Positions 14,492-45,056 of a DNA stretch of 64,000 nucleotides are shown here, in pieces (positions within the stretch are counted from its first letter, which is position 1; every line of letters starts with the position of its first letter). The translations under genes were made by a program, and so were the position numbers. The stretch covers positions 12,840,001-12,904,000 of the forward strand of contig OX419762.1 in assembly GCA_948567375.1 (NCBI GenBank), read 5' to 3'. The notes beneath the pieces are model-generated. The model had not been told where the DNA came from and ran no database searches. It saw only the letters and a list, made by a program, of their open reading frames with translations. Source of the DNA: Lunularia cruciata. Its lineage: Eukaryota > Streptophyta > Marchantiopsida > Lunulariales > Lunulariaceae.

Positions 14492-14522
14492 ATAAATTTT
14501 AGGTAGTTGATAGGTAGTAGCC

Positions 14523-15400: not shown

Positions 15401-15419
15401 AAGATAAATCAAGCCACCT

Positions 15420-15960: not shown

Positions 15961-15989
15961 GGAGAATCTAATGAGGGCCAAAAGTCTCA

Positions 15990-19440: not shown

Positions 19441-19458
19441 AATAGCAATGGGAGAATA

Positions 19459-20365: not shown

Positions 20366-20668
20366 TTAACTTAGCTTGCATGCCAAGTAGGTGACTTCTA
20401 GAAGGAAGCTTCTTGGGAAGCTTCCTAACTAGCTTAGGTTGCATACCAAGTAGATAATTTCTAGAAGGAAGCTTCTCAATAAGGTTGGCTTGCACTCTAA
20501 GAAGAGGGCTTTTAGAAAGCTTTTTGAGAAGCTTCTCAAGAGCCTTGTATGCTCCCTAGAAATACCAAAGCCAAAGCTCATGCTATGCATTCAAAGTTTC
20601 TCTCATTCAAGAGTTCCAATGGGATCTTTAATCTTCCATTCTCCTATTTCTTACCTTGGTCTTTTACA
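20366..20668 (+). repeat. 3' LTR of A3, right part
   Basis: Resumes the LTR at ...TTAGCTTGCATGCC and ends CTTTTACA. It contains GAAGCTTC blocks and a mutated TATA (CCTAGAAATACC). Confidence 0.85.
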
Positions 20669-22341
20669 CTTTGGAGATATCTCTCTCAATGCATACAAGA
20701 GGAGTTATTGAGGTCATTGACCCAAAGAGTGGAGATATTGGTATAGTTCAATGAGACATTCATGATGATGTCTTAGTGATGGATTATCTTTGCATTGGTG
20801 TTGTAGGTGGTACAATTAGTGCCATTATGTTCTTTAGCAAGCCAGATGGTTTAGATTGGAGTGCATACATCTTCTTTATGTATGAGAGGATGGTAGAGTG
20901 CAAGTAGGACCACTTCCATCTCATAGACTACAGTTGGTCCATCATGCTCATAAGGAGCTAGGACATTTTAGAGTACAATAGACATATAGCTTACTCCAAA
21001 GCCATTATTGGGTGGTGTGGTATGTTGATTGATGTACAATAGTTAACTGCAAGATGTGTGGTATGTGATTGAGTTAGAGCATCATTTAATGCTCTTACAT
21101 CATAATTACACCCATTACCTATCATGTGATTGGGTTATCATTGAAGTTTGGACTTTGCCTGACCTTTCTTGTTGATTATGAGACGTCATTGGTATGTTTC
21201 GGTTATGATGGAGCAATTCTCCAAGCGGATTGAGTTGGTGGCACTTCTTGACAAGTCCAATGAAGAGATAGATTACTTGTTCCTAGATCAGGTTCTTAGT
21301 CATGTTGGTGCACCAACTAAGCTTTTGACTAATTAGGGTATACAGTTCTGGGGAGAGTTTTAGGTCTTGCATGACAAAGTTTTGATTGATCATCATACTA
21401 CCTTTGAGACCACCTTGACGCAGATTGCTTAGCAAAGAGAGTGGTTCAGATGGTGAAGAAAGGATTGAATAAGTATGGTTTGTAGAGAGGCCACCTAGGA
21501 GATTGGGATCTCTAATTACCTTGGTTGGCCATGGGGTATCAATTGAGCAAGCAAGCCTCCTTAGCATCCTTCTCTCCTTACTTTATACTCTATGGACAAG
21601 ATCCAAATCTACTTTCAAACATTCATCAAGATGCTAATGTAGTTTAGGACTTGGATGATTCAAACATATGGGTGAATGCATGTTCTCAATGGCAAAGATC
21701 TTTCAGAGAGTGATGCCAAAGGTCTTTGAGAACTTGGTGATTGTTCAGCGTAGAGATACCTTATGCTATGCTACTATTTGAGGAGGAAGTTATAGATCTT
21801 CAATCCATTGATTTCATCCAGGTAACTACGTATATCTACAAGAGATAACATCAATGACTCTTGATGTTACTACAAGCTGCACTATCTTAAGAGTGTATGA
21901 AGTTTTCCTTTTAGAGTCCTCATGTTGCAAGGACAATATGGTATTTTTTGGACGGATCATATGTGCCATGCCACCTCCTAAACATTGATGGCACTATGGA
22001 CCCAAGCTTGGCTCTTGTACATGTAGGCTTGCGGTTATGTTATGCGGCTCTTATAGTGGAGCTACTACTATGTTGGTGTGTGATAGCTATTTGAGAGGAT
22101 GGCATATGGCTTGTTTGACTTCTCCACTCATGGTGGTTCCTCAAGGACAATAGTTATATCCTAGATGTACTTGATCTATAGCTAGTTCACCCTTTATGTG
22201 GTATAGATTGCAAGGAGGTAACTAATAATGGGACTCGATAGCACCTAGCCTCTTGATCTTTGCTCACCATTGGGTATACCACATACTTGGAGTAGATGGA
22301 TATTTGGAGTTAAAGGGACCTAATTGCTAACTAGGGGCAAT
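20669..22341 (+). mobile_element. Family B retroelement B1, segment 4 (integrase and PHD finger)
   Basis: Colinear with B2 33712-35391. Integrase parts seen: YSLLQSHYWVVWYVD-type zinc region near 20990, VCD-VRASFNALTS-like HHCC tail, RHHWYVSVMMEQFSKRIELV, an LTN-GIQFWGEF second catalytic region and RVVQMVKKGLNKYGL near 21440. The C-terminal tail leads to the PHD finger annotated separately, ending in a stop at 22172-22174. The remaining 170 bp to the LTR is non-coding with a purine-rich AGGGGCAA before the LTR. Confidence 0.8.
22034..22174 (+). pseudogene. PHD finger at the C-terminus of B1 pol
   Basis: C-terminal module after integrase. Readable: VMLCGSYSGATTMLVCD, YLRGWHMACLTSPL, VVPQG, then YPRCT before the stop. 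This is the PHD signature (Cys-x2-Cys, Met-Leu-x-Cys-Asp, Gly-Trp-His-x2-Cys-Leu, Trp-x-Cys-x2-Cys). In this copy the first Cys is lost to a one-base deletion, the fourth ligand is Tyr, the invariant Trp is a TAG stop and the seventh ligand is Tyr. Copy B2 retains the lost first and seventh ligands, so the two copies together show 7 of the 8. Confidence 0.78.
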
Positions 22342-22426
22342 TGTGGCACTTTAGAGTTCATGTATGACTTATGTGTGAGTTGTGTTTGTATAGAATATGA
22401 TGTTGACAACAATATATATTATGTAA

Positions 22427-22489
<63 letters not shown>

Positions 22490-22938
22490 TAATAGCTATC
22501 ACAATATTTGTAGCACCAAAGCTAGGTTGCTTTGATGTTGGAGTGGTAGTGTTGGTAGTCATAGGTATTTTAGTAATTACTCATGGATTTCTTATTGGTG
22601 GTCCAATTTTATATTAGGGCTACTGATCACATGGTAGGACCTACCATCACTTGCACCATTCGTACCATCAGATGTATTGTCAATTGTGCCGTTAGGGTTG
22701 GAGACCTAGGTTGAGCATAGGGGTATACCTTTGAGGTGCACTTCCAAAGAGCTCACTTCTTTGATGTTGAGCCTTTGAGTTCTTGGCTACACTACTACTA
22801 AGCATCACCTTGAATTTCTTAGCTAGAGTGGGTGTGGCTTGACTATAATTAGTGCCTAGTTGTGGGTAAATTTTTGAGTGAAAGATAGAGTACATATTTA
22901 ATTTGAGTGTGATTTGAGTGGAATAATGAACTGCTTAT
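22342..22938 (+). repeat. 3' LTR of family B element B1
   Basis: Starts TGTGGCACTTTAGAG after a purine-rich tract and matches B2 35392-35950 and the partial LTR at 25748-26201. Contains an (AT) microsatellite. The terminal base pair is unclear; no CA end is visible. Confidence 0.75.
22429..22486. repeat. (AT)n microsatellite, about 58 bp
   Basis: Uninterrupted AT dinucleotides inside the B1 3' LTR. The other family B LTRs have only a few units here. The YIYIYI open frame across it is not a gene. Confidence 0.95.
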
Positions 22939-23036
22939 TGTGGTACTTTAAAATTCATATTTGACTTATGTGTGAGTTGTGTTTCTATAGTATATGATAT
23001 TGACAATGATGTATATTGTGTAGCAATGTATATACA
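22939..23036 (+). repeat. Second partial family B LTR start, abutting the first
   Basis: TGTGGTACTTTAAAATTC repeats the first 95 or so bases of the LTR directly after its end. The same arrangement is present after the B2 LTR (35951-36038). Confidence 0.75.
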
Positions 23037-23889
23037 CATAATAATACCCTTGACATCTAATGTGATAAGCTCTCGTGCACTCCATGACAATGTTTTGAAT
23101 GTTGAATGTTGTATCCATTGCTCTACATAACTCCAAGGCTAGAGGAACAAAGAAGTGACTTATTGCATGCCTCTATAATTGGAGTCTTGGAGACCTTACT
23201 TGCTACTACTCCACTCATTGCCCATCCAAGAGGTGAGTAATCACTCCCTCCAACTGCATCATGATTAGGAAGGGTAAGTTTCTTGTTCTACCCACTTAAG
23301 AACTAACCTACCATTTGTAGTAGCTAATGTTGGACCTTAAAAGGTTTAAGTGGTTGCATCTCCCCGTCCCATCCAAATAATTTCTAGAGTAACTCAAATT
23401 ACTATGTTAATAATCATATAAATCTAAAGTCTAAAAAAATATCCTTACACATGGGAATAATCCCATGATTAGATGTTCTTATCCTCATCTATCAAATAAG
23501 TCAAGGATCCCTTCACATAGACTATCCTTGGACTAGAGAAAAGTCTATAACCAAATGGCTTGTGGACCCAAGAGTTCTCAACTCTTTCCTCAAAGTCAAA
23601 CATCCAAAAATAATACAAAATCAATACACTAGAATCCAAAAAGATGATGCTCACTCTTTCAACTTTCTCTAAAGTAGAATCTCCTCTATCTTGGTTATGA
23701 TTAACTCTAGCTAATCAAGGCTAATGTAAAAGCTTGGCTAAGCATTATAAAGATAATACCTCTCAACTACTTGCAATATCAAATTTAATATTCCCATAAA
23801 GCATACATGCATCAATAACTATTATAGGTTTGGGTTAGGGTCTCACTACCACGTATAAAGTAGGAATCAAGGAGAAGCCACCCTTGTGG
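23037..23889. other. No recognisable gene
   Basis: AT-rich sequence with stops in all frames. The 61-codon minus frame at 23469-23654 shows no domain and looks like chance. Confidence 0.6.
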
Positions 23890-24413
23890 GGTTCAAGTGC
23901 AACACCCCAAAAGAAAATTTTAGATGGGAAAACTCTAACTTATGCAACCTCCAAAGGCGGGTGAATCTTCTACCAATATGGCAGATCTCCAACTCTTTTG
24001 CCAAATGTGGACCTCTTAATCAAGCTAATCTTTCTAATTCAAGGCATAGGAAACTTTAAATCCCTAATTTGAGGAGATTTGTTCCCAAATCTAGCCCCAA
24101 TTTGCTTCTTTGCTCAATTTTTGAGTCCCAACCACCAATTCCACTCCTCACTTTCAAATGGACCTCTCCAATAATCAAAATTGAACTTCCACTATCTCCA
24201 ATTTGCCTCAATTCTAAGAAATTTGGGTAGTGCTTCCATAGACTATCAGCCCAACTATCAAAATTGCATCAATTTTCACAATACTTTTGCACATGATCCA
24301 TTCAATTGAATAGAAATTGAGTAATAGCATTCATTAATAATGGAGATACCACTAGGTTGGAGATACCACCAATATCCATAGTTCTTACACCCAATGTCCC
24401 CTTAATTCTTTGA
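23890..24413 (-). repeat. Family B leader fragment, minus strand
   Basis: Its reverse complement aligns with the start of the B2 leader (26202 onward), including GGTGGTATCTCCAA and the 'GGGxxATTGGGTGxxAGAACTA' block. No coding capacity. Confidence 0.6.
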
Positions 24414-24699
24414 TATACTCAAATTGTCATGAACTCAACTCATACTAGAAACTTAACTCTCAATTCAATAAACTTCCAACAATGTGCTTTGATTACACAA
24501 TCAATCTTCATGTACTTTAGCTAAAATAATCCATATGATACTCACCAACCTCTATCCATCATAACTAAGAGCTCAAAGGCTCAACATCAAAGAAGTGAGC
24601 TCTCTAGAGTTGCACTTCAAAAGTATACTCTCTTGGAATGACAAAGAATCTCGCCTTAATGGTATGTTTAACAATCCGATTGATGGTGCCAATGGTAGT
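24414..24699 (-). repeat. Family B LTR fragment, minus strand
   Basis: The reverse complement shares AGAGAGCTCACTTCTTTGATG and GTTGAGCCTTTGAG with the family B LTRs. It is interrupted at 24700 by a family A solo LTR. Together with 23890-24413 it is an inverted relative of 25748-28500. Confidence 0.65.
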
Positions 24700-25663: not shown

Positions 25664-25747
25664 TTTGACCATCATGTATAACATCATTCTAGATGTTACC
25701 AAACCAAATTTCACATCTAGATCATATGGCTAGCTCATGGTATTACA
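25664..25747 (+). repeat. Family C LTR 3'-end fragment
   Basis: The last 84 or so bases of the family C LTR (ATCATGTATAACATCATTC... to GGTATTACA). Its left part is missing. It abuts the family B LTR remnant at 25748. Confidence 0.8.
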
Positions 25748-26201
25748 AGTATGATGCCATTTGTAGTGTTGCATCTAGATTGCTCAGACACTAGAGTTGC
25801 AATGATAGTAGTTAGAGGTATTTTAGCAATCACTTGTAGACTATTTCCCAACAGTCAGATTTTGTATTTGGGGTATTGACTTCATGGTGGGGCACACCGT
25901 CACTTTGCACCGTTTGCACCGTTGGATGTGCCTTCAACAGGACCGTTAGGGTTTCATAACTTGCTCAAGTCCAGTGATATACTTTCAAAGTGCAACCCTA
26001 GAGAGCTCACTTCTATGATGTTGAGCCTTTGAGTTCTTGGCTATGATGGACAAAGACCAATGAGCGTTACCTAGATTCTCTTAGCTAGAGTGGGTGTGGC
26101 TTGATTGTAATCAATGCACAATTGTTGGCAGTTTATAGAGTGATAGATCAAGTACTAATCTGACTTGAGTTGATTCAATTGGTGTTATGGAACTGATTAC
26201 A
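25748..26201 (+). repeat. Partial family B LTR, probable 5' LTR of B2
   Basis: Aligns to 35505-35950 and lacks the first 110 or so bases. It is followed without a break by a leader-type sequence, as expected of a 5' LTR. No primer-binding site can be recognised. Confidence 0.65.
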
Positions 26202-28530
26202 TCAAAGAAGTGAGGTCAAGGGGAAATTGGGTGCTAGAACTACAAGTGTTGGTGGTATCTCCAAGCTCAGTGGATTGTTGGTAGCTTGATTGAAGTTTAG
26301 GTTTTCCTTGGTGTGCAAAAGCTCATTGATTGATGTGGATTTGGTAGTAAAGTGGAATGTGTGTAGAAGTGCTGGCCAAACTTTGAGCAAAGATAAGCAA
26401 TTTTTGAGCAATGGGTTGTGATTTTTAGCTTAAGAGGTGAAAGCATGACAAATTTGTTACAAGTTGTGTTCAAAAAGTGAAATTGAAGGTGGAGTTAGGA
26501 ACCAATCCTTGTGAATTTGTGATCTAGAAAAACCTATCATTTCAGTTTAGCTGGAGTGGAGAGTTAGTAGAGGATTTGGTGGTCAACCAACTTTAGAGTT
26601 TAGGTCAGATTTTTGCTAGAGTTTACATCAGATTTTGGCCAGATTTGGAAGAGCTTCAAAATGACAGATTTTGGCTAGAGTTGGTGGAGTTTTACCAGAT
26701 TTGGAGAGGGTTTGAAGTGGCAAGAAGAAAGGCCTTATTTGGGCATTTAGAGGCTTTGAGGCTTAAAGATGTAGGAAATGAAAGCCTAGAAGGTCCAGCT
26801 TGTTGGCATGAGGGTAGCTAGTTTAGAGTAGATCTTGGTTGTTGATTGGCAAAATCTGCCCATCTTGCTAGATTGTGCGCAATAGGGTTTGACCCCTAGA
26901 TCTTTGGTTCCTAGATTGGCGCCCTAGCCAACTGGTTCACCCTCACTTGTTGTCTTAGTGACTGGCCCACTATTATCTATACACTTATAGCTTTGGCTAG
27001 GAGAGGCAGTTTGATCCCATTCTTGGTGATCCTAGTAGCTTAGGACTTAGATAGGAACTCCTATTATATCAAATGCCAAATGGTGGTACTCCTATTATAT
27101 CAAATGCCAAATTGTGGTTTAGATTTCTTGTGATTGGACCCCTTCCATTCTTTACTTCCTGTTTGTGCACCATGTTTGTGTGAGGTGACCTAAATTTAGA
27201 GCGTTGGTGCTCTAGTGTGCTCTTGGTAGTGAGGTTGGAGTGATGACCAATAAGATTACTTTTTTTCTCTCTAGTGAGACAAGAAGTGATGACATGTAGA
27301 CCGTGAGAGTGCATCTTGTGATGGTAGGGTACAAGTTGCCCTTTCCCTTAGTGTAGTTATCATAGTTAGGGCTACATTAGTGGGTGGTGTAAAAGACCAA
27401 AACCGAGGAGAGAAATAGGAGAATGGAAACTCACATTGGGACACTTGAATGAGGGAAAACTCCGAATGCCTTGCATGAGTTTTGGCCTTGGTATTTATAG
27501 GTAGCATACAAGACCCTTGAAGCTTCTCAAGAAGCTTCCTTGAGCCTCTTTCTTGGAGTGCAAGCCAAGTTAACTAGGAAGCTTCTCAAGAAGCTTCCTT
27601 CTAGAAGCCGCCTACTTGGCTTGCAAGCTAAGCTAGTTAGAAGCTTCTAGAAGCTTCCTTCTAGAAGCTACCTGCTTAGGGCGCAAGTTAACTAGTTGGG
27701 AAGTTTCTTAAGAAGCTTCTTAGATGCTTCTAGAATATTCTAGGCTATTTTGTCTTATTCTCTACTTTGTAAGCCCGACTAACTTTGTCACTAAACTCCA
27801 TATTGTTACAGGTGGTGCTTGGTTGGTATTGGTACTTGATGGTGTTTGGTTAGTGGTGTTGATTCTTGGTGGGGTACTTGTAGTTGCGATTGGTGGTTTA
27901 TGGTCACTTTGTCATGATGGAGTTTTTTGGGGATTCTAGAGGAGATAGTCCTATAGTATGCAATGGGTTTACTCAGAGTGGCACTCAATATCAATCTGTA
28001 TCTTAGGTCCTAGTGAGAGAGGAGATTGACTTTGAGTTGGAGTTTGACATAGGAGCTAATTCAGTTGAGAGTGCACTTGGCATGTCTGCACCGTTGTTGT
28101 GGGATATGGATGACATTTATGGGGCCTCCAAAGGCCCTATAAATCTCATTGAGTTAGTCTGGTATAGTGGGTTCCATTGAGTTGGATGATTTCATTGAGG
28201 AGTTTGATAGTTGATGTGATCTACAGTAAATGTGAAACTCAACTTTGTTCATACCCTTCATGGCATGGAAGAGCTTGTTTCAACATTTGGAGAGTACGCC
28301 AATTGGCAACTACCATGAGTTTAGGAGAGCTTACTTGGAGGAGATTGAGTAATGGAAACAATAGTGGTCTCCAAACTATATCTCCATTACTTTAGGCTTA
28401 GTTTTTAGGGGTAGATTGGCTGTACCCACAAGTTCTAGCTCTAGTAGCATTGGTGGATCTCTTGGAGATAATGCTACTACGAGTGGAGGTACCGCTATAG
28501 GAGGTGGTGTAGTACTAGGGTTTAACCCCA
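26202..28530 (+). mobile_element. Long leader of family B element B2
   Basis: A 2-kb stretch between LTR and gag without credible ORFs; the first half is repeated inverted at 23890-24413. A family A solo LTR (27388-27810) lies in it. From about 27950 faint gag-like frames begin. Unusually long for a plant Ty3 element leader, so it may include unrecognised insertions. Confidence 0.5.
27388..27810 (-). mobile_element. Family A solo LTR, minus strand, perfect TSD
   Basis: Reverse complement of the family A LTR (TGTAAAAG... to ...TTGTTACA on the plus strand), flanked by identical GGTGG (27383-27387 and 27811-27815). The repeated GAAGCTTC/TCTAGAAG blocks and the TATA (TATTTATAGG on the plus strand) are intact. 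Relatively young by sequence. Confidence 0.92.
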
Positions 28531-29381
28531 TGGTGGAGTTCTTTTAGTGTTTGAGGTAGAACTACCAAGGAGTGCGGATTGACAAGCTGAGGAGCTTGTA
28601 GGTGTTCTAACGGAAGGCTGGAGAGAGCATACACAAGGCAAACACTTGCATGAAGCGGCTGATCAATTTCACTCAGGGAGATATTGAGGCCCAAGCAGTC
28701 CAATTTTGGTATGGGATATTGGACAAGGAGTTGCAATGTAGAGTTTGTGATACTATGTTGTTATAGGCTACTTTACCTACTTTGGCATTGGTCTTTGGTT
28801 TGGGTGAGCATATTGAGCTCAACATGGTGGAGGAGAGAGTGGTGATATCTGGATTTGGTAAGGAGACCTTATCCACAATTGTGACTTCTTCTAGGTTGTA
28901 GTAGAGTGCACCATGCCCTATTGGTTTTCAAGGATAGGGTGTATAGCCCAGATCCTATGGAGTGAGTGGAGTGCCTAGTGGAGCTAGATCCTTACCTTCA
29001 TTTTTGGGTCAACAACAACCAATGAGTGGTGATGTTGCTTGTTGGACTTGTGGTGGACCTCACTATAGAAGAGAGTGTACTCAGAGTAGCAGGCTTGATA
29101 CCTTTGGTGCATCACAACCAACACAAAGACAATGTGAGCATTGTCAAAGATATGGTCACTTTAATGACCGATGCTTTGACATACACCCAAAGTTACAGAG
29201 TGGTAGGACTACTATGGCAAGTAGTAGAGGAGGTCCAGTTCATGCTGGACAAGGTGGTAGAGGTGGTAGTAGAAGATCTAAATTGAGTAGGAGTGCAATA
29301 CCTACCCTTACTTCTGATACAACTATGGCTACTTGGATTGAGCAATTGGAGCAAAGATTGGCTAGTATAGCCATTGCATAG
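28530..29381 (+). pseudogene. gag of family B element B2
   Basis: Capsid region RLINFTQGDIEAQAVQFWYG (about 28656-28715) upstream of two zinc knuckles: CWTCGGPHYRREC (29039-29077, Cys-x2-Cys-x3-His-x4-Cys) and CEHCQRYGHFNDRC (29130-29171, canonical CCHC) followed by FDIHPKL. A Gly/Arg-rich tract comes after. The last 139 codons (28962-29381) are open and the earlier part contains stops. Role: nucleic-acid-binding structural protein of the particle. Confidence 0.8.
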
Positions 29382-30425
29382 AGGAGATCAGATTTGGGTG
29401 CTGAGGCTTCTACTTCATATGCTAGTGATAGAAATGATTTGGACTTCGTGCGTAGAGCAACATAGGTGGATGCATTTGTAGTAGTGAATAGGAGTGTAGT
29501 ATGTGCTCTAGAGCCTAGAGGAGCATCAATGGAGTTGGACCCATAGAGAGGAGAGGTTAGGAGGCAGGTTAGACTTCCCCAATCTTTCATGATCTTTGAG
29601 GCCTTATGGACGTCATCTAGGGCTTCTAGATGTCCTACTGCAAGTGTGGTAGGTAGTGATGGGATGCATGATGAACTACCTACTATTCAACCATTTGTTA
29701 CTACATAGATTGAGTCCTGCATGATGTTGGAGGTGGCTCAGTTGATTATGCACTATCCTTTATTTTCAACCAATGACATGTGTATATTGGGAGTTGATCC
29801 AACCCTAGTGTTCAGATTGGTTGTTGTGCTTTACAAGAGTAGGGATGATGTGGTTCCTAATACTAGATCATAGATGGTTGATAGTGGAGTTGACTTGGTT
29901 GAGGAGTATGGGATTTGCTCAGCAACCAATGGTTTACGGCAAGCAACAACGGCTAGATTGGAGGAGTTGCCAACTAGACCGGCCTTTGAGAGAGCAGGGT
30001 TCACACCTAGTGTTTTCCTATTGGATAACTAAAGGAGGATTTTCTATTTGGTGGGACCTTCAAGGAAAGTCTTTACACCACAGAGAGTTTTATTAGACTT
30101 TGGTGCGTAGCCTCTTATGTAGAGGAAGGCTACAATTGTTGGTCTAAGGTTACAAAAGACCGATGTAGAGAGGTATCCATTTCATATCCAAACATCCCTC
30201 TAGGAGGTGGTTTGACACAATATATCACACGTGGAGAGCTAGTCGTTCAGATTTAGCCTAGTCAACTAACTAATAGTTTGGCGGTGAGAGCTTAGGCTAT
30301 TGCAACAATGGTTGAGTCATATGATGTGTTTGTTGGTGGAGTAGTGTTATACCCCATAGGTTTCAGTATTGACTACTGGGAGGAGAAAACCTCCTATATA
30401 CCAGGTTGGAAATCAAGTGATGGAT
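29382..30425 (+). pseudogene. Protease region of family B element B2
   Basis: After a spacer, a stretch around 29790-30060 reads KSRDDVVPNTRS, GICSATNGLRQATTARLEEL and VFTPQRVLLDFGA, then PLM. The LLD-x-GA motif (about 30087-30105) is the retropepsin active site with Ser changed to Phe. The C-terminal part reads YDVFVGGVVLYPIGF (30320-30364) and WEEKTSYIPGW. Stops and at least one frameshift. Confidence 0.7.
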
Positions 30426-30487
30426 GAGTTTAGCACCTACCAATATGCTTAAGTAGTAGCAAACTTGGCTCATTATAGTCGAGGACC

Positions 30488-31790
30488 ATGGCAACATTAG
30501 TTTCAGCTTTTAGTGGTGTAGTTACTTGGCCTGGTGATTTATTGGAAGGGAATGCCCAGGAAGAGGATACTCTAGTACCAGAGGAGATCACTTGGATTTG
30601 GAGTATAAGTGGGATTGTTCTATCCACCTTGGATGTTCCATTGTGGAGTTCAAAGGAAGCATTGCAACAACATGCAGGTTGGTTGGTGCAACAAGCTTGG
30701 GGTGGAGCCTTTGTACCACTAAGAGATGAGTGTGAGGATGAGTATCTAGAGTCAACTATGTTGACCCCTCTAGATATCAAACTCATTGCTTGGCAATAAC
30801 TAGTAGAAGGAGTATGTCTATTAGAGTTGTTTGGTAGGATTAGCATTGGACTAGTTGCAATCCTACAAGTGGGTATACAAGTACAAAGGTACTTGTATGT
30901 GGAGAGAGATGAGACTGCTAGGTGAGTCTCTCTACATCATGTGGCACACTTGGCTTATTGATATCTTGAGTTATTACTGATGTCAATAGTCAAGGGTTAT
31001 GAAAAGGCCCTACAAATAGACATTTCCTTATTGGGAGCACATGATCTGGAGAGACATGGGCCTATTCATTTGGTGATTTCTAGATGGTCATGTGAGGGAT
31101 ATACACACATTGGCCAAGGTTTGGGTCTTCAAGATCCCCAATATGGTGTGTTTTGAGAGATGTTATGGATATTGCAACATCTCTAAGTTCATCAGTCCGT
31201 TTCTCCAACTTACATATTAGAGAACATCCCTTTGATAGATGATTCTTGCACCTAGGTGGTGGTAAGTATACATCAAGTCCATTCTTGGATGGGGCATGCT
31301 ATGTTTTTAGATGAAGCCAGAGTGGGATCACGGGCTCATTGCGTTTGTCTTTGGTAGACAAACCTTTGACCTAGAAAGGTTCTACAACATACTCAGGATG
31401 GGATTTAGCAACTAGACCATATTATTGTTGAAAACATCTTGGATGTTAGGCATCAATCTCAGACGTTGGTAGTGGTTGACAGGTCACTGATGGCATTGGT
31501 GAACCTAGTTGGACAGCCTAGAGCCACTTTTCCCACACTTATGAGTTTCCTAGGCTCTCATGCTTTTTGGGAGGGAGGTCTTGGATTGGTTTGGAACTCA
31601 CAATTATAGCAATTGGTGGAGCCCAATGCCGATGAGAGAGAGAGAGAGAGAGAGAGAGCATACGATGGGTTTTTACAATGGTATTACTGTTGTTCTAGTA
31701 GTGTTAGAGGCATCCATGCATCAGGTGTTAGGTCAGGCTATGAACTTAAATTTTTTGACTTGGATCGTGAGCCTTGGCTTGGCAGAGTAG
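30488..31790 (+). pseudogene. Cytosine-5 DNA methyltransferase domain in B2 pol
   Basis: A DNMT domain lies between protease and RT. A single frame, with only point stops, runs from a linker (30488-30799, EALQQHAGWLVQQAWGG) into motif I LLELFGRISIGL (about 30818-30853), motif II YLYVERDETA, motif IV VISRWSCEGY (catalytic Cys codon 31091-31093; Pro before it is Ser, Gln after it is Glu) with GLGLQDPQYGVF, motif VI YILENIP (Glu 31220-31222), motif VIII-like ARVGSRAHC...LW, and a target-recognition stretch MALVNLVGQPRATFPTLMSF. Motifs IX (DERER...MGF) and X (HQVLGQAMNLNFLTWI) follow, the frame shifting at a GA microsatellite. Known use of the family: transfer of methyl groups to C5 of cytosine. 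The AHR-type motif VIII looks DNMT3/DRM-like rather than DNMT1-like; this is my reading. Too decayed to be active. Confidence 0.85.
31634..31658. repeat. (GA)n microsatellite in DNMT motif IX
   Basis: About 12 GA units encode the Arg-Glu run of the motif IX region. Copy B1 has only about five units at 5884-5895. The expansion shifts the frame between motifs VIII and X. Confidence 0.9.
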
Positions 31791-33656
31791 CATAGGATGT
31801 GCTTGATAGGCATCACCACTCAAACACTTGTGAGCCCTATACCTATCGAGATGATTCAGGCACATGTTGGGGGCAATGGACCAAGTGGGCAGGGTATTCT
31901 TGGGACATAGTCAATGGCTACTAGGGAGAGTGGTCTACCAGGAGTCCATCTAAGTGAGCATGGGCTACTTGGATTACACTCTTGGTCTACTTTGGATGCA
32001 GCTAGAGGACATATGGAGCTTGCAGCCAGATTGGAAGGAGTTTTTTACACTAAGGGTTGGGACCTCTAGTGGTTAGGAGCATGACACTATTGCTCCCAAG
32101 GGTCTAGTGTAGCATCTAGTTAGTATGTCTTCCACTCCAACAATAATTATAGAGGATACTTGGGAGCCAAATCTTGGACCCAAGCTTCCAAGAAAGGAAA
32201 GACAAAGAGTTTGGAGGTTCTTGAAGAGCTACACAAGTTATTTTTCCTTTAGTATGAAGGATTTGGGTGCTCTAAAAAGACCTAGTATATGGATTGAGTT
32301 GACTAGCAATACACCAATTTTTTGACGTCCTTATTGATATAGTGACATGGAGTGAGTATTGATTCAAAGTCAAAGTAATGACCTTTTTGAGGCTGGTTTG
32401 GTAGAGATTTCACATGGAGAGTATGCATCAGTGATAGTGATGCCAACCAAGAAGGATATGCATGGCAATAATACAAATAGGCAGATGTGTGGAGATTATC
32501 GCCATATCAATCAATAGACTAGGGCTGATTGGTATGCCATGCCTACACTAGAGGAGATCTTTGATGCAATTGGGCATGCAAAGGTCTTCAGTACTTTAGA
32601 TCTTTGAGTATTATATCATAAGTTGCCACTTAGGGAGGAGGATAAGTCCAAGATAACATTTTGGGCTATTGATCCTCATGGCAAGGATGTGTTATATTAA
32701 TGGAGTTTCTTACCATTTGGGTTAAAGAATGCTCTTGTTGAGTTCTAAAGGGTCATGGAGAGGATCCTAGCTGGACTGGATTTTGCTTGGTGCTATATTG
32801 ATTACATTTTGGTCTATAGCACTACAGTGGAGGAGCATGAGAGACAATTGTTGGAGGTGTTTGAGAGGTTGAGATCTCATGGACTCAAATTACATCCTAG
32901 GAAGTGTAGGTTCTTCCACAAGCAAGTTGAGTATTTGGGTTGCACTGTGCACCCCAGAGGACTTGGTGTTCAGCAGACTAGGTGGAGGCTATTACGTGTA
33001 TTCCTTGGCCTACGGATGTGAGCAGAGTGTGAGCATTCCTTGGGTTGGCAAACTTTTATTGCTGCTATGTTAGAGGATTTAGTGCCATTGCCAAGGCCTT
33101 GAAGAAGCTAACAAAGCTTACACAAGAGTGGTGTTGGGGAGATGAGCAAGAGAGAGCTTTTGTAGAGCTCAAGGAGAGGTTGCTCAAGGAGAGGACATCT
33201 GCTTCTATTTTGAGGAGACTGATCAAAGGACGGCCATTTCAAATTTGCATTGATTGGAGTATGTTGGGGCTTGGAGCAGTGCTCACCTAACATAATGATG
33301 AGGGGAAAAGTTTGTAGTGGCCTATGCTAGTCACTCCAACAATTTAGTGGAGGCAAAGTATAATTCATATGAGAGAGAGGCTTGGCAACAATTTGGGTAG
33401 TAGTACATTTCTGATGTTATCTTTTTGGTAACCCCTTTACTCTCATCACTTATCATCAGCCATTGAAGTGGTTGATGGAGTCTGATAAGCTTTTAGGGAA
33501 GCTTACACAATGAGCTCTGATTTTACAAGAGTATGATTTCACGGTTATCACAGACCTGGAGTGGTGAATCATGATACAGATGGGTTGAGTAAAAACCCAT
33601 GTCCCAACCAACAAGATTAGACCCAAGCACGTTGGCATGGTGAGATATATGAGGAG
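31791..33656 (+). pseudogene. RT-RNase H of family B element B2
   Basis: A linker (to about 32160) precedes RT: WEPNLGPKLPRKERQRVWRF, VIVMPTKKDMHG, MCGDYRHINQ, ADWYAMPTLEEIFDAIGHAK, KDVLY, LPFGLKNAL and catalytic YIDYILVYSTTVEEHE (about 32791-32838), where YIDD is mutated to YIDY. It continues GLKLHPRKCRFFHKQVEYLG, then the connection region NFYCCYVRGFSAIAKALKKL. RNase H follows: ICIDWSMLGLGAVLT with the first Asp (about 33247-33290), HQPLKWLMESDKL and DGLSKNPCP near the end. The family is Ty3/gypsy, clearly distinct from family A. Confidence 0.88.
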
Positions 33657-34889
33657 ATGGTGTCTGGTTGGCATGCATCTACCTTTCTCTATATATTTTC
33701 TAAGACTTTGGTGGTATCTCTCTCAATGCATACAAGAGGAGTTATTAAGGTCACAGATCTAGAGAGTGGAGATAGTGGTACAATTCAGCAAGACATTCAT
33801 GATGATGTCTTAGTGATGGACTATCTTTGCACTGGTGTTGTGGGTGGCACAATTGGGGCCAAGGAGAGAGACCGTGTCTTTCAGCAAGCTAGGTGGTTCA
33901 AATTGGAGGGCAAACACCTTTTGCGTGTATGGGAGGATGGTAGAGTGAGAGTAGTACCACTTCTATCTCAAAGACTATAGTTGGTTTGTCATGCTCATGA
34001 GGAGCTAGGACATTTTGGAGTAAAGCGTACATATAGCTTACTCTAGAGTCATTATTGGTGGTGCGGTATGCATACCAATGTAGATATTTTGTTGCCAGAT
34101 GTGTAGTTTGTGACCAAGTTAGAACATTGTTCAATGCTCCTATGCCATAGTTACACCCATTACCTATCATGAGATTGGGTTATCATTGGCGTTTGGAATT
34201 TGTTGGACCTTTATCATTGACTGTGAGACATCATTAATGTGTTTTGGTGATGATGGAGCACTTCTCTAAGTGGATTGAGTTGGTGGCACTTCCTGACAAT
34301 TCAAATGAAGGGACGGCTTAGTCATTCCTAGATCGGGTTCTTAGTCATTTTGGTACACTAGTTGAGGTCTTGACTGATCAAGGTATAGATTTCTTGGGGA
34401 GTTTTATGTCTTGTGTGATAAGGCTTTGATTGATCATCGTATTACATCCCAAGATCACTCTGAGGCAAATGGCTTAGCAGAGAGAGTGGTTCAAACAATG
34501 AAGAGAGGATTGCAAAAGTATGGTTTGCAGAGAAACCACCAAAGACCACTTACCTTGGTTGGCCATGGGCTATCAATTCAGCCGGCATGCCTCCTTAGCA
34601 TTCTTCTCTCCTTACTTGCTACTCTATGGACAAGATCTTGATTTACTTACAGCCATTTATCGAGATGCTATTGTAGTTTTGGACTTGGGATGATTCAGAT
34701 GCATGGATGAGCGCATGTTCTCAACGGGCACAGATCTTTTGGAGAGTGATGCCAATGGCCTTTGAGAACTTGGCAATTGCTCAACATAAAGATCCCTTAC
34801 ACTATGCTACTATTTGAGGAGGAGGTTATAGACCCTCAATCCATCAAGTTCATCCAAGGGACTATGTATATCTACAACAGAGAGCACCG
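33657..34889 (+). pseudogene. Integrase of family B element B2
   Basis: An open N-terminal frame 33657-33980 includes IQQDIHDDVLVMDYLCTGVV and LLRVWEDGRVRVVPLLSQRL. Beyond it, HAHEELGHFGVKRTYSLL supplies the His ligands of the HHCC module. The first catalytic region (LGYHWRLEFVGP-like, near 34175) and second (LTDQGIDFLG, near 34372) are recognisable, and the third reads SEANGLAERVVQTMKRGLQK (34459-34518) with Glu kept. Frameshifts scatter it over three frames. Confidence 0.78.
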
Positions 34890-35223
34890 ATGACACTTGC
34901 TGTTTCTATAAGCTGCACTACCTTGAGAGTGCATGAGGTTTTGCCATCTGGAGTCCTTGTGTTGGAAGGAAGTGATGGAGTTGTTTGGAAGGATCATGTG
35001 CGCAATCGTGTGCCATCCCAACTCCCAAACATTGATGGTATTATAGACCCAAGCTTCGCACTTGTACGTGCAAGCTTGCGGTGTATGTTATGCAACTCTT
35101 CTGGTGGAGCTGTTATTATGTTAGTGTGTGATAGATATTTGAGAGGATGGCATATGACATGTATTGACTCCTCCCCTCATAGTAGCTCCATAGGGATTGT
35201 GGTTATGTCATAGATGTACTTGA
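34890..35223 (+). pseudogene. Integrase tail and PHD finger of B2 pol
   Basis: The frame from 34890 reads VHEVLPSGVLVLEGSDG, VKDHVRN-type segment and NIDGIIDPSFALVRASLR, then a PHD finger: C-x2-C at 35082-35093, MLVCDRYLRGWHMTC, and after a +1 shift near 35160-35195, GLWLCHRCT and a stop at 35221-35223. Seven of eight zinc ligands (Cys4-His-Cys3) are visible; the fourth is Tyr (TAT), as in B1. PHD fingers in general read histone H3 tails; here it sits where chromoviruses carry a chromodomain. Functional role is inference. Confidence 0.8.
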
Positions 35224-35391
35224 CTTATAGCTAGTTCATCCTATATATGGTATAGATTGCAAACAAGCTACTAACGATGGGGCTTAAGAACACCTGACCT
35301 CTTGATCTTTACCCATCATAGGGTATACCATATACTTGGAATAAATGGCTAGTTCAAGTTAGAGGGACCTAAATGCCAACTAAGGAGTAAT

Positions 35392-35950
35392 TGTAGCACT
35401 TTATAGTCTATGTATGACTTATGTGTGAATTATGTGTCTATAGTGTATAATGTTGATAGTGATGAATGTTGTGTAGCAATGTATATATGCATGATAGTTG
35501 GCATACTTCTTGTAGTGTTGCATCTAGATTGTTCAGACACTAGAGTTGCAATGATAGTAGTTAGAGGTAGTTTAGCAGTCACTCGTAAACTACTTTCTAA
35601 TGGTCAGATTTTGTGTTTGGAGTATTGACTTCATGGTAGGGCCCAACGTCACTTTGCAGTATTTGCACCGTTGAGTGTGCCGTCAGTGGGACCATTAGGG
35701 TTTCAAACCTAGCTCAAGTCTAGAGGTATACTTTTGAAATGTAGCCCCATAGAGCTCACTTCTCTAATGTTGAGCCTTTGAGTTCTTGGCTATGGTGAAT
35801 AGAGGCCGGCGAGCGTCAAATAGATTCTCTTAGCTAGAGTGGGTGTGGCTTGACTGTAATTAGTACCCAATTGTTGACAACTTATAGAGTGACAGATCAA
35901 ATACTGATTTGAGTTGAGTTAATTTGAGTGGGTGCAAACGAATTGATTAT
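35392..35950 (+). repeat. 3' LTR of family B element B2
   Basis: Starts TGTAGCACTTTATAG after a purine-rich CTAAGGAGTAAT and aligns with 22342-22938. Confidence 0.75.
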
Positions 35951-36038
35951 TATGACACTTTAGAGTCCATGTATGATTTATGTGTAAGTTATGTGTCTAT
36001 AGCGATGTATGTTGTGTAGCAATGTATATATGCACAAC
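35951..36038 (+). repeat. Second partial family B LTR start after B2
   Basis: TATGACACTTTAGAGTCC repeats the first 90 or so bases of the LTR immediately after it, ending near TATATATGCACAA, the same point as in B1. Confidence 0.7.
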
Positions 36039-37560: not shown

Positions 37561-38481
37561 ACCTGGAAGTTAGTTCTAGAAATATTTGAGTTTGGAATTT
37601 GAAATGGAAGTATTAATCTTGTTCATGAAAATAACCATATTGCGTGAAACTATTCACCTTGTTCACGGGAAATAAATATATTGTAGCCACCTTTTAAGGA
37701 TAAGTTCAGGTATGAAAGTGTATACGTGAGATGTCGTTGTAAAGAGAAGTGTTAGCACTATATTGAAAGGGGGTTGTTGTACAGAGTAAGGGGGTGTCAG
37801 CGCTATATCAAAGTCTGGTGGTTGTACGAGCAGTGAAACGTCATCCTTAGAATCGACTATTCTCTTTCCTTCTCCCATATGTAAGATCTTCAAAATTCTG
37901 GGAAAGTTTAAGATTTTGGGATAGAGAAGACTTCGTATCTTTGAAAGGGAGGAATCTAACATGCGGGAAAGGATTTAAGAGAGTTCACATTCGAGGGAAA
38001 AGATTTATTAATGTCTAAGGGAACCTCAACATAAGTGAAGTGAAATCGAACATTAAATTTTGATGGAATTAACTTGTAAAATTTCCAATAGAAAACTGAC
38101 TCAAAAGAAAAGTCGTTTACTTTTATACACATATAAATATAAAAAGTGTTGGCATTACATATGGGAAAATTTGTGGTCCCGAGCTTTACTAATCACTAAA
38201 CTATGTATCATTCTTACTGCTATGCTACTACTATTAAAATAACTAGGAGAACTCTAATTGCAGTATCTTTATTTCTTTTGTAATTACAGAAGAAATGAAG
38301 ATATTGTTATTGATATAGAGAGCGATAAGAATCAAAGGTACTGTAATTACAATACCGCTCACTCTTATCTCTCTCTCGATACCTTTCACTTTTCAATAGC
38401 CTTGTTTACTTACTCATAGGGAAAAAACAATTGTAGACATGGGGCAAACACTGGATTGCGTTTATAATATTCACGTAAATC

Positions 38482-38519
<38 letters not shown>

Positions 38520-41125
38520 ATTGGATGTTACGTGGTAACTATTGAGTTTCTTTTGACTGGGAAATATATCTTGTGTCTATTGTGAAGTGGTGGAGGAAGT
38601 CAAATCAACTTCAACCGGATAATTTTGGTTGAGCGAGGAATCTAGTAATTGAGATGATTAAGACTCGGCAAACTTTGCGAGAGGGTAGATTCATAACCGG
38701 AGACAATACGTTATTTTGCTAATCGTTGGATGGAATTGTATCTTGATGAATTAATTCTATGTGGTGCATGAGTGAAAATTACCATTACCCAGTTGAGGAA
38801 AGTCCAGATGTCCCCGATAACGACTCCATGTTAGATAGATCTTTGAATTTATCCAGATGTAAACCGAAAAGAGAAACAAAGGTGGTAGAATCTACAAGAG
38901 GAAGTATAAAGCGACAAGAGAAACAAGGGTAGAATCTACAATAGGAGGATAGTGACAGTCCGGGACTCATAGAAAGAACTCTCACTTCAAGAAGAGAGGG
39001 TGTCCCGTCCATCGCATTAGCGTTCAGTGAAACTCAAATACTCAAATCAAAACCTTAAAATCTGAAGTGCACGTTCCTAAGTACTCCTGATTCGGTTTAC
39101 GAGGCCTTTCATCCAATTTATGGATCAGTCTATCTCCTGTAAATTCCGCAACTGAAAGCCCCTATACCTCATGTGGATTTAGTTACCTTAAGAGAAAAGG
39201 TGACCCGCATAAAATAAACGAAGGATGGGAAGACCCATCAAGCCGTGCAAAGGAGAGAAAAAAAAGATAAAATGGAACTAACTCCAATAGAGTCTATATG
39301 ATAAATCTGCTCTAGCGCACCATTTAGTTATCATAAGCGGAGAACATATCATGAGAAATGTGAGAGGAGGGGGTCGCTTCATTATGTGCATGCAAATGGT
39401 CCCATGATGCTCTTTATTGTGGTTAATTTTTACTTATACTTTTTTCCATTTTTAAACAAATTTATAAGGCGGCCCATGACCGTCTTTGACTCTCTCATAC
39501 TCTAACGAACATATAAAGATTGAAAAACTAATATACGTCCGTCACGGAAAAACTATCTTTCTTAGCATTATTTTTTAATGTCGATGCAATGAAATTTGTA
39601 AACATTAACATAGTATTATTGATGGATCTTTCATAAAATAGTTTTTTCGAGATTTGCATTTGGCACATGAGAATGGGGTGGATGCATTTTATATCAATAT
39701 GTAGTTCGAACATGAACATATATAAAAAATTAGAGATTTTCTCAAAATAGAATATAATATATAAAGTGCGGGAAGATTTATGTTGATATAGAAATCTTCG
39801 CTTATATTACTGTTACTACATAAGTGTTTACGAATATGGTTATTTTCATATTCTAAAAATAAAATCTATATATGCCAATTTTTTTATTATGTATCCATCA
39901 AAAAGTTTGACATAAATGAGTATCAGTTTTGGTCGTTGTCATTCTGTTCACACTATTGTGCAAATCGTTTTTTAATTGTAGGCTTTGAAGAATTTCCCGC
40001 TCGCCTGAGTACCTACCAAAAGAAAATGAGTGATTAACATTCAACTTTTTTAAATCTGTAACAACAACGAACATGAATGAAGTATATACTTGTAATAACA
40101 AACAACGATTCATTTTAACAATGATTCAATTTCAACATGCGTAATGTCGGTATAACAAGGCTAATTGACATGACTCGATTAATTCGCCATGAAAGCAACG
40201 GTATTGTATTTTCACTACACATATAACGGTAATCTAAAAGGCAAAGAAAAACCCTTCACAAGGTTCGCCCGGAAAACCTGACAAGATGGTGGGGCACTAC
40301 AGTACCTCGATCAGTTCGATAGACCGCAAAAGCAAAGTCACAAGTTGTTGCGGGTGTAGATGTAGACTCGCGGGGTGTTATCGCAACAGTGAGAGCGGAA
40401 GAAATCTGGCCTCATGTGGGAAGCGAGGAGGAGCAGATTCGTGTCGATCACAAGTAGCGAAGTGTATGCAACTGCTCGTCCGAGGCAATCGGACCAAGTA
40501 AGAGATCTTAATGGTGTTCTCATCCTACGAGGTGCTCTGCCGGGGTATCTTGAGCTATCGTTTCGGGTTTATATAGTTCGGATTTCGAAAATTTGGTTTC
40601 AGTAGAGGACGTTCAGGAGTCCTCAAACTAGCTTTTGGATAGTCACTCCGTCCGATTAGTGATATGGTGGACATTTGTGGACGTCATCCGGTTGTATCAG
40701 TTGGAAAACGTGAGAATACCAAGTTTCTCCAAGGTTTTCGGTGTTAGCTTACTGCGTGATTGTCCACAGAACTGAGCCTGATATCCGGAAACATGACGAC
40801 CATAGGAGCTGCTAAGCCGGTAATTCGCTCTTCTGCATTTGTCTGTTACAGAAATAAAGGGTCTTGGTTGCAATTAATCAGAATAAGCTGCTGCAATCAA
40901 GTTACGATTTGATTCTACACCTTTTACAGTCCATGTCACGATTTCATCGGGATCAGTTGACTGTAGTGGAATGATCTTTCATTCGATAAGCCCATCTGGT
41001 TATGGTTTAGCTCTAGGTCATCAGATGAACATGTTACCGTCCACGTTGCTATTGTTGAAATAGATTAATTAATCGGATAGATTAATTTGATCGGATTTTG
41101 GGATCATCTAACCGTTGTGTACGAT
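37561..41125. other. Intergenic, no gene recognised
   Basis: AT-rich to mixed sequence. It holds an (AT)n run at 38485-38517 and a roughly 40-bp direct duplication (AAGAGAAACAA...GTAGAATCTACAA) at about 38869-38945. GC rises from about 40200, and small frames at 40286-40605 (60-71 codons) have no domain. This part may contain the promoter or 5' exons of the downstream NB-ARC gene, but I cannot show that. Confidence 0.5.
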
Positions 41126-42639: not shown

Positions 42640-44120
42640 TGGGAAAACGAAGATGTAGTTTTGTTGTATGGCAATCCTGGAAGTGGAAAGTCCACTCTAT
42701 CCAGATACATAAGAGATCACTACTCACGTAGTCCTCATGGACTGGAGGGCATGAACAAAGTTGCAACTGGATCCAGCCGGGATGATACGGTTTTTGAGCC
42801 CAGAAAGTCCATCGTTGTTTTGCTGGAATGGTGGCGCGGGGCGGAGGTTGCATCCAAGCTCTTGGAACTTTTCCAAACCCTCAGTTGAAAGCAAGTTCCA
42901 GGCAAAACTACAGGTCAGATCAAAGTGTTCTGATCAAACAAGAAATACGCAATGCAAGAGACTTTGATAATCTTGGATGACGTCTGCGAACAGCGTTTCA
43001 TCAAAGCTTTCGTTGATGACCTTGCGTTTGATTTACCCGGTCAAGTGAAATTTCCAATCACCTCAAGAAAGGCCACCATATGGAATTCTTCAATTTTCAT
43101 AGAAATTCCACCAATCAGTTTGAAGAATGCAGAACATATCCTGGCAGCGCATGCAGGACTTTCAGACCAAGAACTACCGTCCAACTTGAAGGTTTGACCT
43201 ACCACCTCCATGCAACTCTCGTGATCAATCGCAAAAGATGAATGGAGAAATGGTTCCAATTTCTCATTCTAAATCCTGTATACTGTTGGATACTGAAGCC
43301 ATGTCATACAAAGTCCCTATTATACATCGTCTATTTTTTCAGCCAGGCTAGTTCAAAGCTGAACGTTATTGACTGCTCCACATTTTTTATGATCTCGATG
43401 AAGTTCTCTGTAACTTAACTGAACAGAGCTTAACAGAAACTCGTGCCCGACCATGTTATAAGGAATAATATCTTGCATTGAGTGAAGGAATATCCAGGTT
43501 GTCATATTGCATGACACAAGAGGAAAATCTAATTTAGTCCTACAAAAACTGCAGGGTATTGCTGGCCGTTTGATAAAACAAACAGAGTGCAATCCCTTGG
43601 CTCTGGCTATGGCGGGGTCGAGAATAACCAAGAGCAAGAACACTATCGACAAGGACTGGGACGAGGTGGCAAAAGGCTACTCGACCACCATAAGAGGGGA
43701 AGTGAAAGGCACAGGCACAAGTTCCCGATTCACACCGGTTTTTGGTTCTCCGTACGAAAAAATCATTGGGGAATCATTGCTGATGACATACCATGACCTA
43801 TCAAAGAATTCTCGACGTTTGCTTATCTTGATCGCAAACTGTGAAGGGAAAACCATCCCCGTTCAAGTTGTGCGCAGGTTGTACACTACAGTACAGGAAG
43901 GAGAATATCCAACGACATTCCGCGATCACCTCAAGCAACTGAGAGGCGATGGAACGATGCTGCAAGTGAACGTCAATTCGATTGCAGTCTTTGATCCGGA
44001 ACTTGCTATCAGGTCGTCGAAGCCATACGCGTGCAGTTTGTTGAACTTCGAAAATGGGGGGTTTCACGATTTACATCGGAAGTCATCAACAACCATGATG
44101 AGACCAGAGATAGAGTCGGG
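42640..44120 (+). pseudogene. NB-ARC region of the NLR-like gene
   Basis: ENEDVVLLYGNPGSGKST carries Walker A (42670-42696; GxPGSGKST in place of the plant GGVGKT). The next frame gives RNBS-A-like RGAEVASKLLELFQTLS, then a +1 shift. Kinase-2 LIILDDV is at 42964-42984, RNBS-B-like VKFPITSR, and ILAAHAGLSDQELP before a GT donor at 43192. The next exon starts at 43555 after CAG: CNPLALAMAGSRI (GxP motif, 43588-43626) and an ARC2 region LSKNSRRLLILIANCEGKTI. A frameshift at about 44010 moves to the frame reading RKWGVSRF. Confidence 0.85.
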
Positions 44121-44480
44121 GAGTTGATGGATTCCTTACTGGATACCTGTCGCAATGGGACACCCTCTGTACAAAACACAACAGATGAACACCGCAGCGC
44201 CAGCGAAGAAGTCCTTGCACTTTGCATACTTTATGTAAGGAAGCAGTATGCACAGAGAGCCGCCAAATACCTGGGAATACGTGATCCAGACTGCAAGCTT
44301 TTCAAGGAACTACGGGTTGCGTTAGGAACTCTTGTTATCCTGTTGTGTGAGCAACTCTCAGAGGACGAAGGCCGCCAGTACGAAAGCTCAGAGAGTGAGG
44401 AGGAGAGCAACCAACCGTCATGGAGAGAGAATAAGGGCGAAGTGGTCTTGGACAAATGATTTGTTGTGCGAAGCAGGTAC
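44031..44480 (+). pseudogene. Helical linker of the NLR-like gene
   Basis: A frame of 142 codons, FVELRKWGVSRFTSEVINNH to KGEVVLDK, is rich in Glu/Ser near its end (SEDEGRQYESSESEEE). It sits between NB-ARC and ARM repeats; no domain recognised. A candidate GT donor lies at 44477-44480, followed by an intron to the CAG at 45054-45056. Confidence 0.65.
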
Positions 44481-45056
44481 GGGATGGATACTTCCTGAAG
44501 GATATAGCTGTGTGTTTTTCACCTGGTAAATGCATGAGACCCAATATTCAAACCTTAGTTATAGACATTAAAGGTACCTTCCCTAAACTCCGTGAACCTT
44601 TCTGGTCATGAAATTGTTAGCTATTTCTTATGTGGCTAAGTTAATCAAGGTTACTGTTATTTAAGTTAAATAGCTTTTTGTCCACGTCCACTGGGAGATA
44701 CTAAGCCTATATAGCTCTTACTTGCTCTTGGGGAAATTTCTCATGAACTCCTTGCAATGAACAACGTTGCTATTAACCGAAGCTACATAATTTTGCGAAT
44801 GAACAACCTCTGACGGGTTAATATTTGATTTCATGAGGTTTAATTCTTTTTTATCAGAGATCTTGTTTTAGTTAATAGAGTGGACATCTAGCATGTGCAT
44901 AGGGTTTAAAGATTGAGGCTTTTACGAGGGAATTTCGTAAATCTCGTTTTGTGTTTTTGGCTTTGACTAGAAGTGAGTTACTATAATCACCATAAATTAA
45001 TCCTGTCTAGTTTTGCTTCTAATGAGGGGAAGTGAACGCATTTTCCCCTTGCGCAG
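44481..45056 (+). other. Putative intron before the ARM exon
   Basis: AT-rich, stops in all sense frames, bounded by CAG/GTACGG and a pyrimidine tract TTTTCCCCTTGCGCAG. Confidence 0.6.

Follow-up and report, generated by a model that had tools for sequence, protein, structure and literature searches.

What kind of retrotransposon would carry both a DNA cytosine-5 methyltransferase (DNMT) and a PHD finger, and would the two modules act together? The question is raised by a 64-kb stretch of the Lunularia cruciata genome (64,000 nucleotides of contig OX419762.1, hereafter the window), in which self-comparison delimits a broken Ty3/gypsy element, B2, at ~25746 to 36037 of the plus strand, and in which a second copy of the same family (family B), B1, is also found. 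When related database proteins (referred to by their P-numbers) are mapped onto the window by tblastn, B2 has the order gag, protease, DNMT, reverse transcriptase (RT), RNase H, DDE integrase and PHD finger, and B1 has the same order from the DNMT onward, its gag and protease lying beyond the window edge. This order, which includes the protease-RT-RNase H-integrase succession of Ty3/gypsy elements, had been proposed in an earlier note on this DNA; the positions given there also agree overall with the mapping, except that the DNMT starts near 30683 and not at 30809. On sequence grounds, family B is best described as an old Ty3/gypsy lineage's bryophyte-type representative, now dead, with split repeats, a captured DNMT3-type methyltransferase and a PHD-fused integrase. 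This anatomy is real and well supported, and the mechanism discussed below is what we infer from it.

The coding part of B2, all on the plus strand, begins with a broken gag (28158-30040; 44% identity to P0028 by tblastn, 22 stops over 28158-30200), in which two CCHC-like knuckles are seen by eye at 28947-29378, the zf-CCHC match staying below the Pfam threshold (E-value 0.094). It is followed by a broken aspartic protease (30040-30370, edges approximate), placed by the alignment with P0028, which has a D-S-G-A pattern at 635-641, and by the DNMT (30683-31787, with a linker to 31877), which is 54% identical to P0001 (E-value 3.7e-99). The RT (32116-33012; PF00078 at 1.8e-12 in one frame piece, 48% identity to P0027), the RNase H (33108-33549; PF17919 at 6.3e-07, 58-77% to P0024) and the DDE integrase with its zinc-binding and core parts (33537-34687; 48-55% to P0023 and P0024) are likewise broken. 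The integrase C-terminal region (34689-35070; 67% to P0022 over 34689-35165) leads into the PHD finger (35082-35220), where a frameshift near 35164 divides the match to P0023 between two frames (64% over 34689-35165 and 58% over 35164-35220). A target-site duplication could not be identified in the flanking sequence inspected.

The reality of the DNMT does not follow from a Pfam check: single decayed window frames give no DNA_methylase, because decay has gone too far in these copies (in B2, the frame 30224-31699 alone contains 15 stops, and there is a frameshift between 31633 and 31659). This null result was rejected as a verdict against the DNMT, since a homology search with the literal frame recovers strong relatives. 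With stops written as X, the frame 30800-31792 found 21 proteins among 1446 candidates (best E-value 2.5e-95), most of them with PF00145, and the species include Calypogeia fissa, Marchantia polymorpha and M. paleacea. PF00145 is present in each of the 34 relatives scanned, these having been chosen as matches from the 80 proteins with a DNMT profile. In B2, the cysteine of motif IV and motif VI (ENI) are still legible. The motifs GWPCQG, ENVP and GSRAHRxRLWWTN recur in the relatives little altered, although there are exceptions, for example PYQ in two proteins (P0011 and P0012) and WECQ in four (P0060, P0064, P0067 and P0071); P139, C140, Q141, E183 and N184 are conserved in at least 90% of the 34 DNMT rows. 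When an eight-row profile is searched against the PDB, DNMT3A (9e-16) and DNMT3B (9e-14) are matched over motifs I to VIII, motifs IX-X coming next in the DNMT3A alignments. DRM is matched (1e-11 to 1e-8) only where its chain is permuted, towards the C-terminus, HhaI is found at 1e-4, and neither DNMT1 nor CMT is named among the best 60 of the 64 matches. As DNMT3A and DNMT3B are the top matches and DRM is matched in the permuted part alone, the element DNMT is classified, from its profile, as DNMT3-like with the linear motif order. A scan of viral contigs gave two weak loci, of 25% and 37% identity.

The PHD finger of the decayed copy is also below the Pfam threshold (E-value 0.029), and here too the relatives provide the answer. 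A search with 32301-35400, in which residues 600-1033 were scored, found 6 proteins among 2498 candidates, all with a precomputed PF00628; in one of the six, P0022 (Marchantia gene model Mp_7g09570), DNMT remains, the integrase C-terminus and a PHD finger are in one chain. All eight zinc ligands of the Cys4-His-Cys3 pattern are invariant in 22 of 22 PHD relatives. These were picked by the ligand pattern itself, and the set is identical to the 22 proteins with precomputed PF00628, so that the pattern lost no protein. Pfam finds PHD in all 22 and the integrase core (rve) in 21, in agreement with the gypsy composition and with the integrases mapped in B1 and B2; no chromodomain is among the Pfam families of these 22 proteins. 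The solved PHD structures nearest to the finger of P0024 include those of CHD4, ATXR5, MLL3, DPF3 and PHF21A, several of which favour histone H3 unmodified at lysine 4 (H3K4).

The terminal repeats are unusual in their arrangement. The 5' repeat of B2, A1 (25746-26199, left edge approximate, core 25761-26199), is 83% identical over 440 bp to 35510-35949 of the 3' repeat, A2 (35497-35949). A2 is flanked by a shorter direct repeat, B, in two copies, one at 35390-35496 and the other at the 3' end of the element (35950-36037, edge approximate; 35956-36034 is 77% identical to 35397-35491). B1 likewise ends in B-A-B at ~22340-23043 (B at 22340-22438, A at 22522-22937, B at 22937-23043, plus strand). 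The split A-coding-B-A-B arrangement is thus complete in B2 and present in its 3' part in B1. A different reading is that this 3' end is a plain long terminal repeat (LTR) with a local duplication. Gypsy integrases usually work on plain LTRs, and both ends lie inside the window for one copy only; B-A-B occurs, however, in both copies, and four B copies are found in the window at E-values below 1e-15, none of them beside the 5' A repeat. KnitGypsy-Dnmt3 of the alga Klebsormidium nitens, a gypsy element with a DNMT3-related methyltransferase (de Mendoza 2018, PMC5890265), is described as having this layout, its repeats being given in the Fig. 4 legend as of DIRS retrotransposon structure, and that paper also describes the layout for SymbioDIRS-Dnmt3. 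The plain-LTR reading is therefore considered distinctly improbable, and family B is taken to be the same kind of element as KnitGypsy-Dnmt3, because the termini match the published layout. A-B-A-B ends on an element with a DDE integrase raise a question about replication, this layout being typical of DIRS elements according to PMC5890265.

Relatives were collected from several searches, the third of which (two DNMTs joined in an X-padded query) gave at least 58 proteins of 8000 scored; the matches listed from the searches combined form a set of 85, and the counts below are of these listed proteins. The DNMT profile is found in 80, the PHD finger in 22 and both in 17, of which 13 also have an RT span of more than 250 residues and an integrase. 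Since both window copies and these 17 chains carry the two modules, and the zinc ligands are invariant, the DNMT and the PHD finger are a property of the element, as had been claimed. B1 and B2 are also not a lone segmental duplication: their homology ends at the 3' terminus (the 5' end of B1 being beyond the window), and other species have relatives as well. Marchantia P0028 has a gag knuckle, protease and DNMT, the Sphagnum gene model P0059 has DNMT, RT and integrase, and the Calypogeia match is a DNMT fragment only.

The DNMT is found at two positions in these proteins. In class I, a label that includes DNMT fragments whose domain order is not visible, it precedes the RT; in class II (P0063, P0064, P0066-P0073, P0075-P0078 and P0085), it lies between RNase H and integrase. 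P0082 and P0084 have the order DNMT-integrase-PHD without an RT. A DNMT tree of 46 rows, which leaves out proteins covering fewer than 250 positions of the profile as well as 21 named rows regarded as redundant or partial, has all its 14 class II rows on one side of a branch (support 100/99) and the window copy within ten class I rows including Marchantia, Sphagnum and Calypogeia (97/88). An RT tree of 27 rows, rooted on another gypsy family of the window, family A, and omitting RT spans below 250 residues, has class II as one branch (100/99) and groups the window copy with a pair of Marchantia rows (98/96); every DNMT/PHD element in it is separated from family A (100/100). Both window domains thus group with bryophyte rows. 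The two trees agree, and therefore the DNMT and the RT moved together and the DNMT position changed rarely.

Whether the modules are made as one polyprotein, as the earlier note had it, cannot be read from the stop-ridden window copies and has two answers among the relatives. A one-polyprotein layout is seen, in the predicted chains, for P0060 (2358 residues; protease-DNMT-RT-RNase H-integrase-PHD) and for the class II proteins. Of 21 DNMT-first chains longer than 900 residues with a recognisable motif X (Marchantia and Sphagnum models being counted apart, and P0057, P0061, P0079 and P0080 being excluded because their motif X pattern is unmatched, an RT stretch occurring in P0080 only), 16 (P0032, P0041-P0044, P0046-P0055 and P0058) stop 88-157 residues past motif X, without an RT. 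Those of the 16 that are in the DNMT tree belong, with the window copy, to one 24-row set. Marchantia P0028 and P0037 stop in the same way, 92 and 90 residues past motif X. For P0042 (gag-protease-DNMT) the longest contig on record measures 8955 bp, and the same length is given for P0027 (RT to PHD), so that they are probably two open reading frames (ORFs) of one contig. In the subgroup of the window copies, the DNMT is therefore probably part of a gag-protease ORF, separate from an RT-integrase-PHD ORF.

The best explanation of the whole, which we regard as probable by a modest measure, joins this anatomy to a division of labour in which the integrase-PHD part would choose the target and the gag-side DNMT would methylate the complementary DNA (cDNA) or the new copy. 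The DNMT, made as the tail of a gag-protease product, would be carried in the virus-like particle, and the packaged enzyme would methylate CG sites, either in the cDNA of the element itself or at the new site. The PHD finger, which occupies the place of the chromodomain of chromoviruses and is by homology of a kind preferring unmodified H3K4, would anchor the complex that integrates the element on the tails of histone H3 and select the integration target. We infer that writer and reader act here as separate processed proteins. The retention of the catalytic and zinc residues among the relatives argues for use of both modules by the elements. A DNMT on the gag-protease side would also be inside the particle if it merely protected the cDNA, as a self-mark against host sensors or nucleases or against editing, the PHD finger being an unrelated, ordinary tether. 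Such protection has been proposed for SymbioDIRS (PMC5890265); other retrotransposons of the same genomes, as indicated there and as family A indicates here, manage without a DNMT, and we see the protective role as possible and somewhat unlikely.

It could also be that the two modules act jointly, the PHD finger bringing the DNMT, in a polyprotein or particle, to chosen chromatin, so that the insertion and its surroundings become methylated and the copies are hidden or buffered. The modules are retained together across deep divergence, as the 17 chains with both indicate, with median identities, over 66 pairs from 12 of the 13 full chains, of 47% for the RT, 38% for the DNMT, 43% for the integrase and 53% for the PHD finger; in animals, too, DNMT3 has an ADD domain (PMC12344493). 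Against joint action, the DNMT and the PHD finger are probably on different chains in the subgroup of the window copies, and the CpG content provides no sign of it. The observed/expected CpG ratio is 0.18 in B2 and 0.12 in B1. Of three family-A elements, the one at 164-5558, in which no DNMT was detected, has a ratio of 0.14, and the two others have 0.25 and 0.44; the ratio is 0.79 in an armadillo-repeat region (43500-47700), which is not depleted. CpG depletion was accordingly rejected as a trace of self-marking, and the suggestion that writer and reader together mark the element's own copies stays conjectural. The B copies look, from their composition, long methylated and deaminated, as do neighbours without a detected DNMT. 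We regard joint action as unlikely, and prefer separate roles for an integrase-PHD targeting unit and a gag-side DNMT.

Several observations weigh against this preferred explanation. In B2, motif IV reads SCE instead of PCQ, and the KnitGypsy DNMT was without activity in yeast, where the test was inconclusive for KnitGypsy and the SymbioDIRS enzyme did produce CG methylation (PMC5890265). Zinc ligand 4 of the PHD finger is tyrosine (TAT) in both window copies (35127-35141 and 22079-22093), whereas it is cysteine in 22 of 22 relatives; the source lineage of B1 and B2 may already have had this tyrosine, and the PHD finger of this subfamily may therefore have been impaired before insertion. The split repeats are complete in one copy only, and in the rooted RT tree class I is not a single clade. 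Five of the 21 DNMT-first chains (P0060, P0062, P0065, P0074 and P0083), all outside the 24-row set, continue into the RT, as do the gene models P0030, P0033 and P0036 of Marchantia and P0059 of Sphagnum, where the continuity is perhaps due to splicing by gene prediction. In the pairwise comparison of B1 and B2, the ratio of nonsynonymous to synonymous substitution (dN/dS) is 0.69 for RT-RNase H, 0.66 for the integrase and 0.89 for the PHD finger (50 codons), compared with 0.40 for the DNMT (184 codons); decay therefore dominates, and the PHD finger is without visible constraint.

If the DNMT and the PHD finger were functionless, hitchhiking remnants, this last result, the breakage of both modules in the window copies and the loss of PHD ligand 4 in both copies would be expected. 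It is difficult to reconcile such a view with the conserved DNMT catalytic residues and PHD zinc ligands of the relatives described above, or with the DNMT identities to P0001 of 73% in Calypogeia P0003 and 77% in Marchantia P0028, and we consider it highly improbable.

Compared with known systems, KnitGypsy-Dnmt3 is the closest, sharing with family B the gypsy domain composition, an unrearranged Dnmt3-related DNMT in the coding part, the DIRS-like A-coding-B-A-B repeats and the conserved catalytic residues. This likeness rests on the published description, no Klebsormidium protein being named among the 85 listed matches. Family B differs in its PHD finger (as far as the text of PMC5890265 goes, where the word is absent), in its land-plant hosts and in a DNMT that is probably on the gag-protease chain; the KnitGypsy DNMT is inside the Pol ORF, the relatives of family B being mixed in this respect. 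SymbioDIRS-Dnmt3 also has a DNMT3 in a retrotransposon, A-B-A-B repeats and two alternative domain orders, and it differs by a tyrosine recombinase in place of the DDE integrase, by its dinoflagellate hosts and by having no PHD finger mentioned in the available text (PMC5890265). No tyrosine recombinase (PF00589) is among the Pfam families of the scanned family-B relatives, these being scanned as chains, so that a recombinase in a separate ORF would escape. PMC12344493 assigns the streptophyte and dinoflagellate elements to LTR Copia and DIRS, in conflict with the Gypsy assignment of PMC5890265.

Chromoviruses resemble family B in having a chromatin-binding module at the integrase C-terminus (Neumann 2019, PMC6317226), and differ in that this module is a chromodomain where family B has the PHD finger, and in that no DNMT was found in them; the words 'PHD', 'methyltransferase' and 'Marchantia' are absent from the text of that survey. 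Animal DNMT3 has the same catalytic order, and reader and writer in one gene. It is, unlike family B, a host gene, with a reader of a different type that is N-terminal to the DNMT. The ADD domain is PHD-like and reads unmethylated H3K4.

The DNMT3-bearing gypsy element with split repeats is therefore known, and what is new is the PHD finger, the land-plant hosts (Marchantia and Sphagnum) and the two DNMT positions. The claim that no PHD-bearing DNMT retrotransposon had been published stands in so far as titles and the starts of abstracts report none in a gypsy element with a DNMT, figures, supplements and subscription papers being outside that search. It is less secure for KnitGypsy-Dnmt3: 'PHD' is absent from the text of PMC5890265, and the drawing of the Klebsormidium element in Fig. 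4c could show an unnamed one.

It is conceivable, and in our view doubtful, that a widespread, ancient clade of gypsy elements with split repeats of the circle type couples an integrase histone reader to a methylation writer, such that insertion both selects chromatin and stamps it with 5-methylcytosine. If this were true, the clade would amount to a mobile system for de novo methylation, complete in itself and parallel to the host DNMT3, in land plants. A PHD finger on a DDE integrase together with a DNMT3 in the same element provides a testable case of chromatin reading plus DNA methylation, and the tractable plant Marchantia polymorpha has annotated long open frames. Plant DNMT3 gene counts may be inflated by such elements.

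Some relatives have additional C-terminal regions. In P0063, P0066, P0068, P0071, P0072 and P0083, 246-604 residues follow the PHD finger, with a DP[WF].. and a [SP]P-like pattern; by eye, such tails of several RT-DNMT-integrase proteins resemble a second, possibly degenerate S-adenosylmethionine methyltransferase fold. Pfam gave nothing convincing on four of these tails, the best methyltransferase match being N6_N4_Mtase at an E-value of 0.28. Residues 2179-2227 of the class II protein P0069 match signal peptidase S26 (PF10502, 1.1e-10), which may have been captured from a host or may result from gene fusion.

Further copies of these two families lie elsewhere in the window. Three nested elements, all from a single LTR family, split B1 (plus strand) at ~164-5558, 6022-11865 and 13769-20669, and its DNMT is in two parts (3-167, 53% to P0001; 5603-6022, 59% to P0028), followed by RT and RNase H (12219-13766; 36-54% to P0027 and 56-66% to P0023) and by integrase and PHD finger (20829-22171; 46-64% to P0023), where the integrase is at 20829-21710, the C-terminus with the PHD finger at 21692-22171 and the PHD finger itself at ~22034-22171. 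A third family-B copy is represented by a fragment, with an A repeat and adjoining 5' internal sequence, on the minus strand at 24349-24633 (73% to 25978-26273, reversed). The nested elements belong to family A, which has further copies at 52068-57604 and 60597-64000. Its assignment to the chromoviruses follows from the scan of one copy's integrase end (56469-57260, in the element at 52068-57604), which has an SH3 and a chromodomain (PF00385, 1.2e-12). A solo LTR of family A is on the minus strand between A1 and gag of B2 (27385-27810; 91% to the LTRs of the 52068-57604 element).

Ten window frames scanned with Pfam gave no NLR domain, no search having been aimed at bryophyte-type NLRs. At 45112-47673, a 263-bp unit is repeated seven times in tandem (45522-47399), and its frames match armadillo repeats (PF00514, PF24768 and PF25598). 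A unit of ~143 bp is repeated ten times at 57957-59403, where the minus-strand frame 57920-58420 is without a Pfam match. The region 38000-40000 is A+T-rich (GC 0.335), with an observed/expected CpG ratio of 0.88, unlike the transposon-filled parts of the window.

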